From assembly GCA_039961735.1 (NCBI GenBank), contig JABRVX010000036.1:1-46687 (forward strand): 46,687 bases of DNA. Direction: 5' to 3'. The translations under genes and the position numbers were made by a program. Positions 33,482-46,687 of this stretch are shown piece by piece. The notes below the pieces were generated by a model. It saw only the letters and a list, made by a program, of their open reading frames with translations, was not told the origin of the DNA and did no database searches. Source of the stretch: Fimbriimonadia bacterium (GTDB lineage: Bacteria; Armatimonadota; Fimbriimonadia; Fimbriimonadales; JABRVX01). The number at the start of each line of letters is the position of its first letter. Within the stretch, counting starts at the first letter, position 1.

Positions 33482-34642
33482 ATGCGAAGTAAGAGACAGG
33501 CGAGCACGGGCGTTTCGCTCGCGCTGCTCGCCTTGAGCATTTGCACCGCAGCGGCGGCGCAAGATCGTGGCAGCACGGATCGTTCTGTCCCGGACTGGGT
33601 CAACCGGATCTCGATCTCAGGACGCGCGTTCCTTCGGTACAGCTACGAGCTGGACTCTTCCAAGGACGACTTCAACGAGTTCTCCGTGGACCGGGTGTAC
33701 TTGACGTTCAGGTCCAAAGTCTCGGAGAAGAGCACGGTGCAATACACGCTCGAGGGCGGCGAGATCCGTGATGCTGATTATCGTCTGTCCGACGGCAACC
33801 TCGAGAAGGTCTCGACTTCGATGGACGTTCAGACGAAGTATTTCTTCTTCGAGGTCACGGATGCGCTCTATCGCACGGGCTTCGTGCGCGTTGGGCAGGC
33901 ACCGCAGCCCTGGGTACCGTTCCAGGAAGACCTCTGGGGCTATCGCGTGCAGGGCACGGTGTTTTCGGACCGCTCCGGCTACTTGAGCTCCACGGACCTC
34001 GGACTTAGCTTCGGCGGGACGATCCCAGACGGCTACGGCAGTTGGCACGGGGCGTTCGTGAACGGAGAAGGCTGGAAGAGCCCAGAGCGCGGCAAGCACA
34101 AGGACTTCCACTTTCGGGCTACGGTGTACCCATTCGCGAAGAGCCCTGAGGCGGTCAAGAACCTTTTCGTGTCTGGATTTTTTTCGACCGGTGCGTACGA
34201 CGACGTAAGCGCAGGGCCGCGCGATCGCGAGCGCGCAATCGGGCAGATCGGCTATCGGAAGGCGGGCTCGGTCTACCTTGGGGCGGAGTACCTGTGGGCG
34301 TCCGACCCCGCAGACAAGATGAAAGCTCGATACCCGAGCCTCGCAGCGCGATCCGGTCAGATTTCCGATGCACGGGGCTACTCGGTATATGGTGTCTTGA
34401 ATGTAGGCGTGTTAGGCAGAGGGGCCGACGCGGCGAAGTGGGACATCTTAGCGCGCTTCGACAACCTAGACCCCGACAACGAGATAGCAGACAACGACGT
34501 CGAGCGCTGGATTGTCGGTGTCAGTCACCGGTTCAGCTCGAATGTGCTCGCCCTACTGGATTACGAGACCGTGGAGTATGCAAGCGGAGCGGGCAAGCCC
34601 GACGAGCGACGCATTTCGTTGCGGGCCGACATAAAGTTCTAA
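33482..34642 (+). CDS. Outer-membrane beta-barrel porin (phosphate-selective porin-like)
   Basis: A 386-aa protein with a signal peptide (residues 1-27, ending TAAAAQ) and alternating beta-strands through to a C-terminal Phe (LRADIKF), the usual outer-membrane insertion signature. YLTFRSKVSEKSTVQYTLEGG, RVGQAPQPWVPFQEDLWGYR and DILARFDNLDPDNE resemble the OprO/OprP-like porin group. An AGGAG site precedes the ATG. It is the first gene of a three-gene set with the ferredoxin and the molybdoenzyme, 9 nt ahead of the former, so it probably admits that enzyme's substrate, likely an oxyanion. An A+T-rich stretch at about 33385-33415 may hold the promoter. Confidence 0.85.
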   Translation: MRSKRQASTGVSLALLALSICTAAAAQDRGSTDRSVPDWVNRISISGRAFLRYSYELDSSKDDFNEFSVDRVYLTFRSKVSEKSTVQYTLEGGEIRDADYRLSDGNLEKVSTSMDVQTKYFFFEVTDALYRTGFVRVGQAPQPWVPFQEDLWGYRVQGTVFSDRSGYLSSTDLGLSFGGTIPDGYGSWHGAFVNGEGWKSPERGKHKDFHFRATVYPFAKSPEAVKNLFVSGFFSTGAYDDVSAGPRDRERAIGQIGYRKAGSVYLGAEYLWASDPADKMKARYPSLAARSGQISDARGYSVYGVLNVGVLGRGADAAKWDILARFDNLDPDNEIADNDVERWIVGVSHRFSSNVLALLDYETVEYASGAGKPDERRISLRADIKF

Positions 34643-38745: not shown

Positions 38746-38821
38746 GGCGGCGGTAGCTCAGTGGTAGAGCACCTGACTGTGGCTCAGGGGGTCGCGGGTT
38801 CGAGACCCGTTCGCCGCCCCA
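38746..38821 (+). tRNA. tRNA-His(GTG)
   Basis: Complete cloverleaf: acceptor arms GCGGCGG (38747-38753) and TCGCCGC (38811-38817), D arm GCTC...GAGC, anticodon stem CCTGA/TCAGG with loop CTGTGGC (anticodon GTG), T arm GCGGG...CCCGT with TTCGAGA, and an encoded CCA (38819-38821). The extra 5' G at 38746 opposite discriminator C38818 is the G(-1):C73 pair that marks tRNA-His. The tyrosine integrase gene downstream suggests that its 3' end served as the attachment site of the element. Confidence 0.97.
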
Positions 38822-39005: not shown

Positions 39006-40148
39006 CTATGCGCCGGTGCGGGAGACTGCCGGTCGCAGCACTCTGTCCATTGAGGCGGCCGCCTCGCGTTGCACCTCAGGCATCACGTGGCTGTAGAGGT
39101 CCATGGTCATCGAGATGTTGTTGTGGCCGAGAATCTCCATGACGACCCTTGGGTGGACGTGTTGCGCAAGCATCAGGCTAGCGCAGGCGTGCCGCAAGTC
39201 GTGGAACCGAATGCGCGGAAGTCCTGCCCGCTCCAGGAGTTCGTGGAAGGCCTTTCGGGCGTTGCGCGGCTCCAGCGGTGTTCCCTTCCTTGTCGTGAAG
39301 ATGAGCCCTGTGTCCACCCAACCGTCGGCGGCCAGTAGACGCTCCTCATACTGCCGCACCTTCCGCTCGCGCAGTGCCTCGACTGCCACTTCCGGCAGGG
39401 CGATCGTGCGCCTCGAGCGCTTCGTCTTCGGCTCGACTAACACCACCTTGCCGCCGATCCGCTGTACCTGCTGCCTCACCGTGATGGTACCCTTCTCAAA
39501 CTCCACGTCAGACCACGAGAGACCGAGCCCTTCACCCAATCTCAGCCCTACTGCGAGCGCGGCAGTGAACAACGCTTCAAGCCGATCGCCCTTGACCGCC
39601 TCGAGCAGCTTCTGTGCGTCGTCAGGCGATAGGGGCCGGACCTCATGGCGCTCCACTCTTGGCGCCGGCACCAGTAGCGCGACGTTTCTTGGCACCAAGC
39701 CCCAGCGCACCGCGACGTTGAGCGCAATCACTAACACGGTGCGGATGTACTCCACCGTCCTAGGGGACAACCCGCTCTGCAGCTTCCGGTTGAGTAGTGC
39801 CTGCACGCGCTGCGGCGAGAGGTCTCCGAGTTTGGTGCGACCAAAGTCGGGCACGAGGTGCTTCCTAACTACTAGCTCGTAGCTTTCGAAGGTACGAGCC
39901 CGGACGGTTGGCCTCGCCGTCTCCCACACCCAACTTGTTAGGTACTGCTCGACCGTCTGGCAACTTGGCGCTGCCGGAAGGCCCTGCTGGTAGTTCCTGA
40001 GCGCCTCGGTTAGCTTCTCTTGGACTTCCTTGCGGGTGCGACCTAGGAAGAAGTGCTTCCGCTTCCGCTTCCGTTTCCCACCTTGCCAGCCAAGGTTGAT
40101 GGACGCGCACCACGGTTCGCTGGTGGATGCTGCCTTCTCCGTGACCAC
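39006..40148 (-). CDS. int: Tyrosine recombinase / phage-type integrase
   Basis: A 380-aa site-specific recombinase. The basic N-terminus (WQGGKRKRKRKHFFLG) is an AP2-like/arm-binding region, followed by a core-binding SAM-like domain (about 64-150) and the catalytic domain with R203, H316-D-L-R319, H342 and Tyr352 (DLYSHV), which makes the covalent link to DNA. The start is GTG 40148 behind AGGTGA. It points toward the tRNA-His gene, as expected for an element integrated there. It lies 10 nt after the upstream hypothetical gene, so both probably share the promoter near 41344. Confidence 0.96.
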   Translation of the reverse strand: MVTEKAASTSEPWCASINLGWQGGKRKRKRKHFFLGRTRKEVQEKLTEALRNYQQGLPAAPSCQTVEQYLTSWVWETARPTVRARTFESYELVVRKHLVPDFGRTKLGDLSPQRVQALLNRKLQSGLSPRTVEYIRTVLVIALNVAVRWGLVPRNVALLVPAPRVERHEVRPLSPDDAQKLLEAVKGDRLEALFTAALAVGLRLGEGLGLSWSDVEFEKGTITVRQQVQRIGGKVVLVEPKTKRSRRTIALPEVAVEALRERKVRQYEERLLAADGWVDTGLIFTTRKGTPLEPRNARKAFHELLERAGLPRIRFHDLRHACASLMLAQHVHPRVVMEILGHNNISMTMDLYSHVMPEVQREAAASMDRVLRPAVSRTGA

Positions 40149-40158
40149 GTCTGCTCAC

Positions 40159-41283
40159 CTAACCTGCCTCCTCCGTCGCGTGCCTATAAGGTGGGAACAG
40201 CAGGCGCCGCTTGGCTCTGTGGAAGTCCCTGCGGAAGTTGCTCTCCTGCCCGTACTTCCAGCCCTTCGTTGCCCCGTACTCGGCGTTCCAGGCGAGCATT
40301 CGCTCTCCCAACGGCTCATCGGACGGGCGACCAAGGACGAACGCCACCAGCGTCAGGTGTTTCGCGCTCAGCGGCCTGTAGCGCTTGCCCAGCACCTTGC
40401 TGCGCCAAGAGGCGTAAAGCGCAGCCACCTCGGAAGGGCTGAGTGTCGGGTCAAGCTCCAGCTTGATACGCGTCCTGGTGACAGTTAGTGCCACGCCTGC
40501 CAGCTCACCCATCAGCGCCGCTGTGTGCGTTTTGAGACGAGTGGTGTCGCCCGTTCCGAAGCCGAAGGTGCGAGTGACACTGGCGCTCGAGTAGTAGGGA
40601 GCGAACCCGGTCAGCACGAAGGTTGCTGCAGTGCTCTTTGCCCACCCATAGTCCTTAGAGAGCTCCTCCGAGAGCTGGCGGAGCCTGTCCAGAACGCCCC
40701 CTGCCTCGACCGCGTGACGGTAGATCTCAAAGTCCGGCGGGCAAGCTACCTCCAGAAAGGCAACGTGAGTCCTATGAGCACCATGCCCGGGGCCTAGCTC
40801 AAGCGGCGGCTCCACATACCAGCCAGCCTTCCCATGCATCACGTCGGCATCTTGAGGAACCGGAATCGAGTCGAGCCAGATTGTCGGTGGCCCTTCTTCA
40901 CGGCCACGCTCACGGACCCAGTCTACGGCCTTCTCGGGCGCCAGCAGTTCGCCATTGAGGACCTCGCTACGAAAGCTCTGGACCTCAGTCTCAGCCTCCG
41001 CGATCTGAGCAAGCAGAAGGCGAAGCGCGTCTCCGCGAAGACCCCGTAGGTCGGCTGACTTTCCCTCCCTTCGCAGTTCCCCCGTGCCCTGGGCGTCGCG
41101 AGCGCGGCCAGCATAGACCTCGCGCGTCCTCCGAATCCAATTGACAAGTTCGTTCACGTTCTTCATTCCGTGCCGACACTCGAGGGCCAGGTCAGAGTCG
41201 TCTACCCATGCCCATTCCTCGTCGGGCACGCTAGAGCCCAGGAGGAGCTCGACCTGGTCTCGAAACGAATCTCGCTGCTTCAT
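40159..41283 (-). CDS. Hypothetical protein of the integrated element
   Basis: A 374-aa protein from ATG 41283; I do not recognise it. It is mostly soluble with an acidic N-terminus (EEWAWVDDSDLALECRHG), a helical segment at about 60-130 (LRLLLAQIAEAETEVQSFRSE), a middle part containing THVAFLEVACPPDFEIYRH, and a C-terminal helical part with LSPSEVAALYASWRSKVLGK and RRDFHRAKRRLLFPP. The TLSPSEVAALY...RRLLFP layout resembles a small DNA-binding module, but this is weak. It precedes the integrase gene and is probably co-transcribed. Confidence 0.78.
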   Translation of the reverse strand: MKQRDSFRDQVELLLGSSVPDEEWAWVDDSDLALECRHGMKNVNELVNWIRRTREVYAGRARDAQGTGELRREGKSADLRGLRGDALRLLLAQIAEAETEVQSFRSEVLNGELLAPEKAVDWVRERGREEGPPTIWLDSIPVPQDADVMHGKAGWYVEPPLELGPGHGAHRTHVAFLEVACPPDFEIYRHAVEAGGVLDRLRQLSEELSKDYGWAKSTAATFVLTGFAPYYSSASVTRTFGFGTGDTTRLKTHTAALMGELAGVALTVTRTRIKLELDPTLSPSEVAALYASWRSKVLGKRYRPLSAKHLTLVAFVLGRPSDEPLGERMLAWNAEYGATKGWKYGQESNFRRDFHRAKRRLLFPPYRHATEEAG

Positions 41284-41371: not shown

Positions 41372-41402
41372 TTCAGTACTGGCTCAAACTCAGGAGGTGA
41401 CC

Positions 41403-41654
41403 ATGGACAAACTTCTTCTCAGGGTTTGCGAGGCCGCGGAAGTCGCGAGTGTCTGCCGCTCGAAGGCCTACGAGTTGGCCGCGTCGGGCGAGTGGCCGAC
41501 GGTTCGAATTGGTCGCTCGGTGCGGGTCCACGGCCCTGAGCTTCTCGCGTGGATAGATGCGAGAGTCCGCTCGGAGGGCTTGGAGTGCGGGGCTGCCGGC
41601 GAGCGATCCGCTGGCATGGAGGCGCATCAGCGTGGGAACTCCTCAGCAAGTTGA
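41403..41654 (+). CDS. Excisionase-family helix-turn-helix protein
   Basis: An 83-aa protein from ATG 41403, behind AGGAGGTGA, an excellent ribosome binding site. It has the winged-helix 'excisionase/MerR-like' pattern: LLRVCEAAEVASVCRSKAYELAASGEWPTVRIGRSVRV followed by a short helix LLAWIDARV. Such proteins direct integrase toward excision or act as repressors. It is divergent from the integrase genes and overlaps the next gene by 23 nt. Confidence 0.85.
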   Translation: MDKLLLRVCEAAEVASVCRSKAYELAASGEWPTVRIGRSVRVHGPELLAWIDARVRSEGLECGAAGERSAGMEAHQRGNSSAS

Positions 41655-41967
41655 GACCTCGACGCTCCAACGCGTCCTCGAAGCAGCGGAGGCGCACGGC
41701 AGGTCACCGCGTAGATTCGGTGAACGCTACATGGCCTTCTCTCCGCTTCGCGATGAGAAGCGCAGGTCGGTGTCGATCGGTCTGGGCGATGGCGGCAAGG
41801 TGCTCATCCACGACTTCGGTGGCGGTGACACGGAGGCGACCGTCCAGACCTGGGGTCTGACGATGAGCGATCTCTTCCCGCAGAGTAACGATGGTGCTCG
41901 CAGGAGGGTGGGGGGGCGCCTGTCCCCTCCGAAACGCGCGCAACGGTGCAACACCCCCTTGGGTTGA
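41632..41967 (+). CDS. Primase-like N-terminal domain with degenerate CHC2 zinc ribbon
   Basis: GTG 41632 is favoured because GGAGG lies 9 nt upstream; the product is 111 aa. The core YMAFSPLRDEKRRSVSI...KVLIHDFGGGDTEATVQTWGLTMSDLF lines up well with CHC2-type primase zinc ribbons, in which the sequence is like CPAHDDRxPSLSI...LLHCxAGC. Here each expected Cys or His is replaced (by Ala/Phe-type residues at the first, Asp-Phe at HC, Gly at GC), so it should not bind zinc. The C-terminus ends QRCNTPLG, and the next gene in the -1 frame continues the primase. It is either a separate protein or part one of a frameshifted gene. Confidence 0.65.
   Translation: MGTPQQVETSTLQRVLEAAEAHGRSPRRFGERYMAFSPLRDEKRRSVSIGLGDGGKVLIHDFGGGDTEATVQTWGLTMSDLFPQSNDGARRRVGGRLSPPKRAQRCNTPLG
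41940..41957. repeat. GCAAC-type repeat at the primase split junction
   Basis: GCAACGGTGCAACACCCC holds two GCAAC units 8 nt apart and matches 17 of 18 bases of a copy at 43772-43789 at the far end of the Toprim/ATPase gene. It overlaps the frame-2 GTG start and the C-run where a frame change would fuse the two frames. Confidence 0.6.
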
Positions 41968-43808
41968 CGCTCGAGCAGTACGCCGAGGCGAAAGGGCTGC
42001 CGCAGGAGTTCCTGTGCAAGATCGGTCTCTGCACCGCGAGGCACCAGAAGCAGCCCGCCGTCGAGATGCCCTACACGGATGAGGAGGGGACGGTCGTCGC
42101 TAAACGGTACAGGACCTCTCTCGAACGCGGAGAGGACATCGACAACCGGTTTCGGTGGCGGCGGGGAGACAAGCCGCGCCTGTATGGACTTGGCCGACTG
42201 GAGACAGCTCGACAGGCGGGCTTTATTGTCTTGGTCGAAGGCGAAAGCGACTGCCACACGCTGTGGTTCGCAGGGTTACCGGCTCTCGGTGTTCCAGGCG
42301 CAACGATGTGGCGCGACGAGTGGGCGACGTGCTTCGGCGGAATCCGAAAGGTGTATCTCGTTGTCGAGCCGGACGAGGGTGGCCACAAACTCCGTGCTGA
42401 CGTATCGGCTTCGGCACTCAGAGACCGCCTGTACCTGGTTCACCTGCCAGGCTGCAAGGACCCATCAGAGCTCCATCTCGCCGACCCGCAGGGCTTCCGT
42501 GAGAGGTTCCGCGTCGTGCTTGAGCAGGCAACGCCACTCCGGCACGAGCTAGAGGCGGAAGCGAAGTCGCACTGGGAGGCTGCGTGGGAGCAGTGCCAGC
42601 TTCTGGCTGCGCACCCAGACATCCTTGAGCGCTTCGCCCAGGATCTCAAGGCATCAGGTTTCGCAGGCGACACGAACGTGGCAAAACTGCTCTTCCTCGT
42701 GCTCATCACGCGACTGCTTGACCGACCCGTCTCGGCGGCGATCAAGGGCCCTAGTTCAGCCGGCAAGAGCTTCGTCATCGAACAGGTTCTCAAGTTCTTC
42801 CCCACCAGCACTCACTACACACTCACCGCGATGTCTGAGAGAGCGCTTGCGTACTCCAAGGAGCCATTGGCGCACCGCTTCCTGGTGATCATCGAGGCGA
42901 CGGGCATGTCCGGTGACATGCAGAGCTACCTAGTGCGCTCCCTACTCAGCGAAGGCCGTCTTCGCTATGAAACGGTTGAGAAGACAGGCAAAGGACTCCA
43001 GCCTCGCGTCATCGAGCGGGAGGGCCCAACCGGCTTGATCGTCACCACGACGGCCGTGAAGTTGCATCCGGAGAACGAGACACGGTTCTTCTCCTTAACC
43101 GTGACCGACACGACCGAGCAGACCCGGCTGGTGTTGCTTGCACAAGCGCAGGAACCTGGGAGCGCGATCGTGGATCACGCACCTTGGCATGCTCTTCAGG
43201 AGTGGTTGGACAGCGCCGAACGCACGGCGATCATCCCGTACGCCAGCGCAATAGCGCGTCTCCTACCAACACATGCAGTTCGCCTGCGAAGGGACTTCCC
43301 GGCTCTGCTGAGCCTTATCCGAGCACATGCGTTGTTGCACCAAGCAGGTCGAGAGAAGGACACACAGGGCGCGGTCATCGCGGCGCTCAGTGACTACGAC
43401 ATGGTACGAGCGCTAGTCAAGGAGGCCTTCTCAGAGGGCATAGAGGCGGCCGTTCCCAAGGCCGTGCGGGAGACGGTAGAGGCGCTAGAGGAACTGACGG
43501 ACGAGGAGGGTGGTGCAGAGGGGACAGTGAGTGTGTCACGCCTAGCCCAGCATCTCGGCCTCGACAAGACCACAGTCAGCCGCCGCGTCAAGAGGGCCAC
43601 CGACCTCGGTTTCGTGGTGAACGATGAGGAGCAGAAGGGGAAGCCGGCAAAGCTGCATCCTGCGGAGCCGATGCCCGCCGACCGCGATGTCCTGCCAACG
43701 GCAGGCGAGGTCGAGGAGGAGTGTTGCACTGTTGCATGGAACACCAGGCGGTTATCCCTGCCGATTGCCATGCAACAGTGCAACACCCCTCGCCGGGCCC
43801 CGACGTAG
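41946..43808 (+). CDS. Toprim/P-loop ATPase primase-helicase-like protein (C-terminal part of split gene)
   Basis: A 620-aa frame from GTG 41946 with no Shine-Dalgarno sequence. N-terminal residues LTLEQYAEAKGLPQEFL lead into a Toprim-like domain (FIVLVEGESDCHTLW, LYLVVEPDEGG-like strand) of the kind found in primases. A P-loop ATPase domain follows (IKGPSSAGKSFVIEQVL, and LVIIEATGMSGD as a Walker B-like strand), then a C-terminal winged helix (VSVSRLAQHLGLDKTTVSRRVKRATDLGFV). This suits replication initiation of the element. It overlaps the preceding frame by 22 nt, and a -1 shift at the ACCCCCTT run would fuse the two. An inverted repeat lies across its 3' end. Confidence 0.85.
   Translation: MQHPLGLTLEQYAEAKGLPQEFLCKIGLCTARHQKQPAVEMPYTDEEGTVVAKRYRTSLERGEDIDNRFRWRRGDKPRLYGLGRLETARQAGFIVLVEGESDCHTLWFAGLPALGVPGATMWRDEWATCFGGIRKVYLVVEPDEGGHKLRADVSASALRDRLYLVHLPGCKDPSELHLADPQGFRERFRVVLEQATPLRHELEAEAKSHWEAAWEQCQLLAAHPDILERFAQDLKASGFAGDTNVAKLLFLVLITRLLDRPVSAAIKGPSSAGKSFVIEQVLKFFPTSTHYTLTAMSERALAYSKEPLAHRFLVIIEATGMSGDMQSYLVRSLLSEGRLRYETVEKTGKGLQPRVIEREGPTGLIVTTTAVKLHPENETRFFSLTVTDTTEQTRLVLLAQAQEPGSAIVDHAPWHALQEWLDSAERTAIIPYASAIARLLPTHAVRLRRDFPALLSLIRAHALLHQAGREKDTQGAVIAALSDYDMVRALVKEAFSEGIEAAVPKAVRETVEALEELTDEEGGAEGTVSVSRLAQHLGLDKTTVSRRVKRATDLGFVVNDEEQKGKPAKLHPAEPMPADRDVLPTAGEVEEECCTVAWNTRRLSLPIAMQQCNTPRRAPT
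43721..43786. repeat. Perfect 19-bp inverted repeat at the end of the primase-like gene
   Basis: GTGTTGCACTGTTGCATGG (43721-43739) is the exact reverse complement of 43768-43786, with a 28-nt spacer. The right arm shares its sequence with the GCAAC repeat at 41940-41957. It lies inside the last codons of the primase gene and at the start of the next frame, so it could be a replication origin or operator, or an RNA stem-loop. Confidence 0.8.
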
Positions 43809-44029
43809 GGAAGCCGAAACCCTACATCACAGAGAATGGCGAGCTAAGGATCCCCTTCACTTCGGACCGCAGGTACTGGTGGTGGGCGGGTGGTCAGAGC
43901 GTTCGGGAGACGCTGGTGGAGCTGGGTGCCTCCCCCGAGGTCTGGCGGAACTACACCTCCGACCCCTATCCCGAATCGCTGAACGGGCACGATGCAAAGC
44001 AAGGTGGCAAGAATGGCAGAGACGACTGA
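43736..44029 (+). CDS. Small conserved protein of the element, unknown function
   Basis: 97 aa from ATG 43736, or 102 aa from GTG 43721, both close behind a GAGGAGGA site; the start is uncertain. The core reads KPYITENGELRIPFTSDRRYWWW then SVRETLVELGASPEVWRNY. I have seen small proteins of this pattern (LRIPFxSDxRYxWW...TLxxLGA) next to primase genes in mobile elements, but they have no known role. It overlaps the primase 3' end and its ParB-methyltransferase neighbour. Confidence 0.7.
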   Translation: MEHQAVIPADCHATVQHPSPGPDVGKPKPYITENGELRIPFTSDRRYWWWAGGQSVRETLVELGASPEVWRNYTSDPYPESLNGHDAKQGGKNGRDD

Positions 44030-45326
44030 AGCACCCGGATGCCGGGTCATCAACGACAAGCTGGAGATGGTAGCGGTTGCTGACCTGAAGCTTCATCCGC
44101 GCAATCCACGCCGGGGCGACGTGGGGGCCATTCAGGAGAGCATCGAGGAGAACGGCTTCTACGGCGCCGTCGTGGCGCAGCGCTCAACCGCCTACGTGCT
44201 TGCGGGCAACCACAGGCTGAAGGCAGCGATCGAGGCAGGCATGGAACACGTGCCCGTGTTCTGGGTGGATGTTGACGACGACAGGGCGCTTCGCATCCTC
44301 CTAGCCGACAACAGAACGAACGACTTAGCGGGCTACGACGACGAGACGCTGGCCAGGCTCCTCAAGGAACTGCAGGAGGGCGAGATCGGCTTTTTGGGAA
44401 CCGGGTACGACACTAATGCTCTCGACGAGTTGCTCAAGGAGTTGGGCGAGCCCGATCTGCCATTGAAGGAAGACCCGGGCGCAGAGCTCGCCAAGGCGGA
44501 GGAACTTCAAATCAAGTGGAAGACGGAGCGAGGCCAGTTGTGGCTCATCGGGGAGCACCGACTGCTATGTGGCGACTCGACGAACGAGGGCGATGTCCGA
44601 AGGCTGATGGACGGAAAGCGCGCCCAGTTGTTTGCGACCGACCCACCGTATTTGGTGGACTACGACGGCACCAACCATCCCTCCAGCTGGGAAGACAAGA
44701 AGCTGGTGAAAGCCGGGAGGAAGAAGGACAAGAACAAGGACTGGTCGGACAGCTATGGCAAGACCTGGGATGATGCGACCCAGGGCGAAGGGCTCTACGA
44801 CGGCTTTGTCAGGGTAGCCGTGGAGCTAGCGATCGACGACAACGCTGCCTGGTACTGCTGGCATGCTCAGCGCAACCAGGCGATGCTGGAGAGGGTCTGG
44901 CTTCGGCACGGCGCCTTCTGGCACCAGACCATTGTGTGGGTCAAGACCTGCCCCGTCCTCGGCTACTCCTATTACATGAACAAGTCTGAAAGCTGCGCAT
45001 TCGGATGGGTGCGAGGGCATGAGCCTCCCCGCGTAGCAAGCGACTTCCCGCCGAACGTCTGGGAGTTCCCGAATCGCGGCGAGGGCCACGACGACGTCGA
45101 GCACCCGACCGTCAAGCCGGCGGGCGTGTTTACGATCCCGATGCTTCAGCATACCAAGCCCGGCGATCTGTGCTACGAGCCGTTCGCAGGCAGCGGGACC
45201 CAGCTTGTCGCGGCAGAGCAGCTTGGGAGGGTGTGCTGCGCGATGGAGATCGAGCCGAAGTACGTCGCCGTGGCGCTAGAGAGGCTCTCAGGTATGGGTC
45301 TAGACCCGAAGCTGGCAGGACCCTAG
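44013..45326 (+). CDS. ParB-like domain fused to a beta-class DNA methyltransferase
   Basis: ATG 44013 follows AAGGTGG and is preferred over ATG 43992. The 437-aa protein begins with a ParB/Srx-fold domain (about 20-130) holding AGNHRLKAA (GNHR at 65-68). The C-terminal half is an N4/N6 amino-methyltransferase with motif IV DPPY (210-213) before motif I FAGSGT (391-396), the beta-class order. HPTVKPAGVFTIPML is a typical pre-motif segment. The substrate base is unknown (adenine N6 or cytosine N4). ParB-methyltransferase fusions are common in phages. No restriction endonuclease is nearby, so this is probably an orphan methylase that protects or marks the element DNA. Confidence 0.92.
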   Translation: MAETTEAPGCRVINDKLEMVAVADLKLHPRNPRRGDVGAIQESIEENGFYGAVVAQRSTAYVLAGNHRLKAAIEAGMEHVPVFWVDVDDDRALRILLADNRTNDLAGYDDETLARLLKELQEGEIGFLGTGYDTNALDELLKELGEPDLPLKEDPGAELAKAEELQIKWKTERGQLWLIGEHRLLCGDSTNEGDVRRLMDGKRAQLFATDPPYLVDYDGTNHPSSWEDKKLVKAGRKKDKNKDWSDSYGKTWDDATQGEGLYDGFVRVAVELAIDDNAAWYCWHAQRNQAMLERVWLRHGAFWHQTIVWVKTCPVLGYSYYMNKSESCAFGWVRGHEPPRVASDFPPNVWEFPNRGEGHDDVEHPTVKPAGVFTIPMLQHTKPGDLCYEPFAGSGTQLVAAEQLGRVCCAMEIEPKYVAVALERLSGMGLDPKLAGP

Positions 45327-45338
45327 AGGTGCATTGAA

Positions 45339-45737
45339 ATGCGCGAGAATGCACAGCAGAGGGGCAGGAAGGGCGACGCCGAGATGATCGCCGCCCTCGC
45401 GATCGGCAGGACCGCGCGCGATGCCGCCGCTCTTGCCAGCGTGAATGAAGCCACCGTGCATCGGCGTATGAAGGACCCGGAGTTCATGCGGCAAGTGTCG
45501 GACTTGCGCGACCAGATGTTCCGGGAGACTGCCGGCTCGCTCGCACGATCTACGGGCGCAGCAGTCGTCACCTTGGTCGGTCTCATGAAGGACGGCACTC
45601 CCAACGTGAAGCTTGGGGCGGCACGCACGATCCTCGAGTACTCCACACGCTTTGCCGAGACGCTAGAGCTCGCAGAGCGGATCGCAAGCGTCGAGGAGCG
45701 GCTTGCGGCGCGAGGTGATCGGAATGGTAAGGGCTAG
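45339..45737 (+). CDS. Terminase-small-subunit-like helix-turn-helix protein
   Basis: A 132-aa helical protein. The N-terminal part GRTARDAAALASVNEATVHRRMKDPEFMRQV is a helix-turn-helix like those in phage terminase small subunits and in Hin-type DNA-binding domains. The rest (TGAAVVTLVGLMKDGTPNVKLGAARTILEYS) is a helical hairpin typical of terminase small subunit-like proteins, ending in a coiled coil (LELAERIASVEERLAA). AGAGGTG precedes the ATG. If it is a terminase subunit, the large subunit should lie beyond the window edge. Confidence 0.75.
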   Translation: MRENAQQRGRKGDAEMIAALAIGRTARDAAALASVNEATVHRRMKDPEFMRQVSDLRDQMFRETAGSLARSTGAAVVTLVGLMKDGTPNVKLGAARTILEYSTRFAETLELAERIASVEERLAARGDRNGKG

Positions 45738-46449: not shown

Positions 46450-46687
46450 ATGGTCCGTTTGAGCAAGGAACTGGTTCGGCGCGTTCAAGCGATCGAGTCC
46501 AAGATGCCCACGCCTATGACCGTCGTCCTGACACCCACTCAGAGGCAGAACATAGAGGCGACTATTGGGCTGGCAGTGTGGGACAACCTCTCTCGCGGCT
46601 TGCTCCAGGTTGCCGTTCTCGACGGCGAGAGAGGTTGTCCCACACTGCCAGCCCAATAGTCGCCTCTATGTTCTGCCTCTGAGTGGG
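46450..46687 (+). CDS. Truncated hypothetical protein at contig end
   Basis: ATG 46450 follows AAGGAGG. The first ~45 residues (SKELVRRVQAIESKMPTPMTV, then TPTQRQNIEATIGLAVW) look like a genuine small helical protein of the element. From about residue 48 onward the reading enters the fold-back copy of upstream DNA, so the stop at 46659 is probably artificial and the true C-terminus is not in this window. Confidence 0.5.
46534..46687. repeat. 63-bp perfect inverted repeat reaching the end of the window
   Basis: 46534-46596 and 46625-46687 are exact reverse complements with a 28-nt loop, and the second arm runs to the last base. The first arm reads as normal protein code. A long perfect hairpin ending exactly at the sequence end is the classic form of an assembly or library fold-back artefact, not a biological element. 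Confidence 0.85.

Follow-up and report, generated by a model that had tools for sequence, protein, structure and literature searches.

The SaPI Rep helicase recognises, through its C-terminal domain, iterons located directly downstream of its own gene (PMC7581432). PICI origins similarly lie immediately 3′ of rep and contain two iteron sets (PMC6092414), and the structure of Cch, which is related to SaPI Rep, resembles that of MCM (PMC6851490). Here we describe a primase-helicase gene with repeated words of its own, found in a window that is the whole stretch of 46,687 bases of DNA that was analysed. The predicted protein shares with SaPI Rep and SCCmec Cch, for which an iteron origin directly downstream has been described (PMC7581432, PMC6851490), an MCM-like AAA+ ring followed by a C-terminal DNA-binding domain, and its gene shares with theirs short, element-specific repeated words at the 3′ end. 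In contrast with those systems, the window protein includes a fused primase of the DnaG/Toprim kind, the words are inside the coding sequence, and a second block of words is present in an interdomain linker, 1.8 kb away. Two separate cis sites are also found in phage P4, where crr is the second site beside ori; the P4 alpha protein is likewise a primase-helicase, but it belongs to a different family and has no MCM-like ring. Lambda O has its iterons inside its own gene, as proposed here, but it represents yet another protein family and has one block only.

We favour the view, with a probability of about 0.65, that the window holds a single, broken or mis-read primase gene of a mobile element with in-gene iterons. 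The split itself is ordinary and of low interest; what deserves attention is the system of element-specific repeats inside the gene.

The locus and its predicted protein

The primase-helicase gene belongs to an integrated mobile element, the features of which are collected in Table 1. ORF1 is preceded by a GGAGG sequence (41618-41622) and runs from a GTG at 41632 to a TGA at 41965-41967. A sequence-only reading of this DNA had described two frames, the second of them in the -1 frame and without a Shine-Dalgarno sequence. The ORF coordinates (41632-41967 and 41946-43808) bear out the former, and the absence of a Shine-Dalgarno sequence at the ORF2 GTG at 41946 agrees with the latter. Its 22-nt overlap holds if counted from that GTG, whereas the open frames as such coexist over 79 nt. 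The description of the N-terminal domain as zinc-ribbon-like did not stand, since the four zinc ligands kept in the relatives are all replaced in ORF1 (CPAH to SPLR and CFAGC to DFGGG), which therefore has no CHC2 ligand set. The loss of all four indicates that this domain changed before, or apart from, the frame break.

Table 1. Coordinates of the mobile element, the two reading frames and the repeat words in the window
Feature	Position	Strand	Remarks
tRNA-His adjoining the integrase gene	38747..38821	+	likely attachment site
Tyrosine integrase of the element	39006..40148	-	intact
Small HTH_17 protein	41400..41654	+	excisionase-like
ORF1, N-terminal part of the primase	41632..41967	+	111 aa; CHC2-like domain without zinc ligands; aligned to the N-terminal domain of relatives and to PHROG 6088
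ORF2, Toprim primase, MCM-like AAA+ helicase and winged helix	41889..43808	+	first GTG 41946; -1 frame; 620 aa
Both frames open	41889..41967	+	79 nt; holds the frame change, most likely upstream of 41939
Repeat motif copy in the linker	41902..41957	+	G-rich part, CCCCTCCGAAA and word pair
G7 run, G_GGG_GGG in the ORF1 frame	41910..41916	+	G-run of the repeat motif; likely slip site
Linker word pair CGCAACGGTGCAAC	41939..41952	+	one mismatch to TGCAAC NN TGCAAC
TTGA, with TTG 41964-41966 overlapping the ORF1 stop TGA 41965-41967	41964..41967	+	possible re-initiation start just before TLEQYAEAKG
24-bp inverted repeat, arms 43716-43739 and 43768-43791	43716..43791	.	proposed 3′ iteron block
3′ inverted word pair, exact	43723..43736	-	GTTGCACTGTTGCA on the + strand
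3′ direct word pair TGCAACAGTGCAAC	43771..43784	+	exact
ParB-DNA methyltransferase fusion of the element	43992..45326	+	
Terminase small subunit-like protein	45339..45737	+	

The AlphaFold2 model of ORF2, computed with 20 aligned sequences, has a mean pLDDT of 85. Its Toprim part has the fold expected of a DnaG-type primase, with profile matches to 2au3 and 1nui and to PHROG 239 and 849, and Foldseek matches to the DnaG core and T7 gp4. Residues 205-505, or up to 585 with the winged helix included, match MCM helicases with Z of about 22. An MCM-type AAA+ fold is thus followed by a winged helix, which Pfam places at residues 513-558, as in an MCM-like AAA+ helicase. The well-modelled part begins at about residue 9, downstream of the repeat copy in the linker, and the last 24 residues, including the direct 3′ repeat copy, have low model confidence. 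P0002 gave no Pfam match to DUF927, the Cch/SaPIbov1 Rep family, at E values up to 1. The listed fold matches included neither a Cch nor a SaPI Rep structure, which excludes nothing.

Repeat words in the linker and at the 3′ end

The repeat motif is built from a G-rich stretch, CCCCTCCGAAA and a word repeated in tandem with a period of 8. Two copies form the inverted pair near the 3′ end of the gene, and the same motif appears in degenerate form in the linker DNA. That the junction DNA belongs to a repeat found again at 43716-43791 was not mentioned in the sequence-only reading. With up to one mismatch allowed, the TGCAAC pair is found three times in the 46.7-kb window, always inside the primase gene. 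No AT-rich spacer like that between the iteron sets of PICI origins was seen, the 28-nt spacer at 43740-43767 not being AT-rich. The bare 15-mer word pair matched 63 viral contigs, none of them with a related primase, and is thus not diagnostic alone; the longer repeat motif matched no viral contig.

Relatives of the gene have repeats in the same two places, the linker and the 3′ end, built on the words TGCACG, TGCAAC or GTCAAC, and their repeat copies can be aligned over about 50 nt almost without gaps. In L020 and L021, TGCACG pairs are confined to the primase gene. All three reading phases occur among the 3′ copies, so that the constraint at that place is on the DNA and not on the protein. 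The fused primases from the class of Rubrobacter (L020, L021, L031, L032 and L037-L040), at 46-56% identity, resemble the window gene in their domains and in the layout of their linker and 3′ repeats, but they have a single open frame, have kept the zinc ligands and, in most cases, use other words.

Genes from relatives of the same order match ORF2 in the Toprim part only, and their helicase is of another type, as judged by inspection. They too have arrays in the linker, here between Toprim and helicase, and close to the 3′ end. These arrays are inverted and made of yet other words, among them CTGGCAAT (L016), GAAACTCG (L015), GCAACTCT (L017) and CAAATTGCA (L018). These repeats are far above those of codon-shuffled versions of the same genes. 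In two sets of 13 genes, words of the linker recur more often in the 3′ end of the same gene than in the 3′ ends of the other genes (169 and 203 shared 8-mers). Such agreement within genes was reached in none of 20,000 permutations for either set, a test limited by the choice of the block regions after the peaks had been seen. Three of the same-order genes (L003, L004 and L010) show no word sharing above the cross-gene level.

Arrays are found at the corresponding place in more remote elements, with GGTAACCGA just after the primase stop codon in phage THSA-485A and GGTCGG repeats within the 3′ end of the primase gene of a Paraburkholderia plasmid. The primase gene of L029, at 36-38% identity, has eight GATCCAC words on both strands at its 3′ end, preceded by an ATCCCC..AAAA stretch that resembles the one in the Rubrobacter-type motif. 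In three others (L032, L034 and L035) the linker word is TGCAAC but the 3′ word is TGCACG, a mosaic appearance suggestive of recombination between elements that belong to different word classes. When winged-helix similarity was compared with word class, identity was higher within word classes in every domain and could not be separated from general relatedness.

Repeated, element-specific words at the 3′ end of an initiator gene or just past it are a feature of SaPI/PICI-type origins that this gene shares. On balance we lean, by analogy with SaPI Rep, toward the words being iterons, specific to each element, of a SaPI-like origin that lies within the initiator gene. The C-terminal winged helix would recognise the words, the MCM-like AAA+ ring would assemble at them and the Toprim part would prime, and the gene would thus contain its own origin. 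The linker block would represent a second site, as crr does for P4, possibly with looping between the two blocks.

The repeats might instead serve regulation or recombination, as autoregulation sites, as sites for swapping domains between elements or as structured RNA. The blocks are in coding DNA and hence transcribed, and both the mosaic genes and L055, in which a truncated primase is followed by another one, would fit such roles. Nevertheless, we regard this as rather improbable given that the 3′ block sits where SaPI/PICI origins lie, that similar arrays occupy that place in other phyla, in one phage and one plasmid, and that the protein ends in a winged helix, SaPI Rep-type initiators using their C-terminal domain.

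If the words are indeed iterons, the window gene may, more tentatively, belong to a large family of Toprim primase-helicases that crosses phyla and carries a bipartite in-gene origin. The winged helix of each protein would read both blocks of element-specific words, the one in the linker and the one at the 3′ end, and the blocks would diversify together with it. Each element would then have a private replication code. About 25 related genes have the same design with different words, and their pairs of initiators and words make a ready set for learning how such initiators choose their origins. The words would mark likely origins from the gene alone and predict which elements can share a cell.

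One gene or two, and where the frame changes

In eleven relatives from the class of Rubrobacter, which share 46-56% identity with the window gene, a single open frame runs through the junction. In a whole-genome search of 39 genomes from the class to which Rubrobacter marinus (L021) belongs, 12 contained a match with E < 1e-60, at 48-59% identity over most of ORF2, and further, more distant relatives were found in other groups. In addition, the DNA primase family PHROG 6088 matches both halves, ORF1 at profile positions 19-79 and ORF2 at 166-310. Together, the one-frame relatives and this shared profile indicate that the fused primase-helicase is the norm among relatives. The proposal that one primase-helicase had been split in two, for which full-length fused homologues were to be sought, is thus supported: such homologues exist, and all the relatives that span the junction have one open frame, none of them being split at the same place.

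Broken copies exist elsewhere. An in-frame TAG is found inside the N-terminal domain in L051/L033, and L045 and L055 are fragments of the primase gene. At 1336-3137 of L055, a truncated N-terminal part of a primase precedes the start of a second, different primase in another frame. Separate ORF1-like ORFs in L045, L055, L128 and L131 were considered as a natural two-chain form and rejected, as they are fragments or distant primase-like genes. No close relatives of P0001 or P0002 were found in IMG/VR.

Since the -1 frame is free of stop codons from 41889 onward, the switch might occur anywhere in the 79 nt that it shares with ORF1. This stretch contains both the G7 run and a C5 run (41952-41956), at which the sequence-only reading had placed the frame change. 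The comparison with relatives points elsewhere. Their linkers align with the window -1 frame (GGAPVPSETRATVQHPLGLTLEQY versus, for example, GGSYIPPETGSTDQPATLQNY and AGSSTPSKTRATGQHP..GVTLATY). In nine of nine relatives with TGCAAC or GTCAAC in the linker, three of them near-identical, the first word is at codon phase 2, which is its phase in the window -1 frame and not in the ORF1 frame. The phase is not fixed in the whole family, as the three TGCACG relatives have their linker word in phase 1, and the argument thus rests on the nearer word classes, TGCAAC and GTCAAC. A codon-usage score agrees weakly with it. The nine relatives therefore place the frame change probably upstream of 41939, within 41889-41938, and the reading phase of the linker word together with the alignment speaks against a slip at the C-run. 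A better candidate is the G7 run, which lies 40 nt further upstream and is one of the two homopolymers of at least seven bases in the 46,687-base window, the other being a T7 at 34178.

We conclude that the two ORFs very probably represent one broken or mis-read gene. A single frame break, probably by slippage at G7, would have arisen in the linker that joins the N-terminal domain to the Toprim domain, either in the cell or in the sequence record, and the retention of a G-rich DNA element within the coding sequence would also account for the position of the break. Among the four causes offered earlier (programmed frameshifting, translational coupling, decay and a homopolymer error), decay by ordinary mutation or a sequence error fits best. 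Both are likelier than programmed frameshifting, which is without conservation, no relative being split here.

Two chains by design, with ORF1 ending and ORF2 starting by termination-reinitiation at the TTGA, are unlikely. The TTG overlaps the stop codon directly before TLEQYAEAKG, where the folded part begins in the model, and ORF1, having lost its zinc ligands, may be dispensable. However, no relative encodes two chains, the -1 frame matches the relatives well upstream of the TTG, and such overlaps are frequent by chance for TGA stops. Re-initiation at this site is nonetheless a possible route to the expression of ORF2 from the broken gene. Least probable of all is a programmed -1 slip of the ribosome that would yield the full-length protein and ORF1 alone: the slippery heptamer is in the right frame with a Shine-Dalgarno-like AGGAGG (41902-41907) just upstream to help, but the distance from this AGGAGG to the heptamer is 2 nt, compared with about 10 nt in dnaX, the G-run and its G-rich surroundings belong to a repeat motif that is also present at the ends of genes, where a shift would serve no purpose, and the relatives spanning the junction, all in one frame, need none either.

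The locus also serves as a warning that the interdomain linkers of such genes can be DNA sites and that their G-runs are prone to frame errors.

Surroundings of the element

A PICI-like satellite has an integrase gene, an HTH regulator, pri-rep, an origin and sometimes terS, and no capsid genes. The first genes of the element fit this layout, and the view ends with the contig at 46687. Between the integrase and HTH genes, a 374-residue protein encoded on the minus strand (40159-41283) has no Pfam or PHROG match. The end of the contig, which is also that of the window, is a perfect 63-bp inverted repeat (46534-46596 and 46625-46687). This terminal fold-back is probably an artefact of the assembly.

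Another contig of the same genome (L123, G000:C42, 11694-11740) contains a 47-nt stretch, 96% identical to the 3′ half of the tRNA-His gene that adjoins the integrase, next to an apparent CRISPR array and apparent cas genes of type I. This stretch could be the second attachment site of the element, or that of another element.
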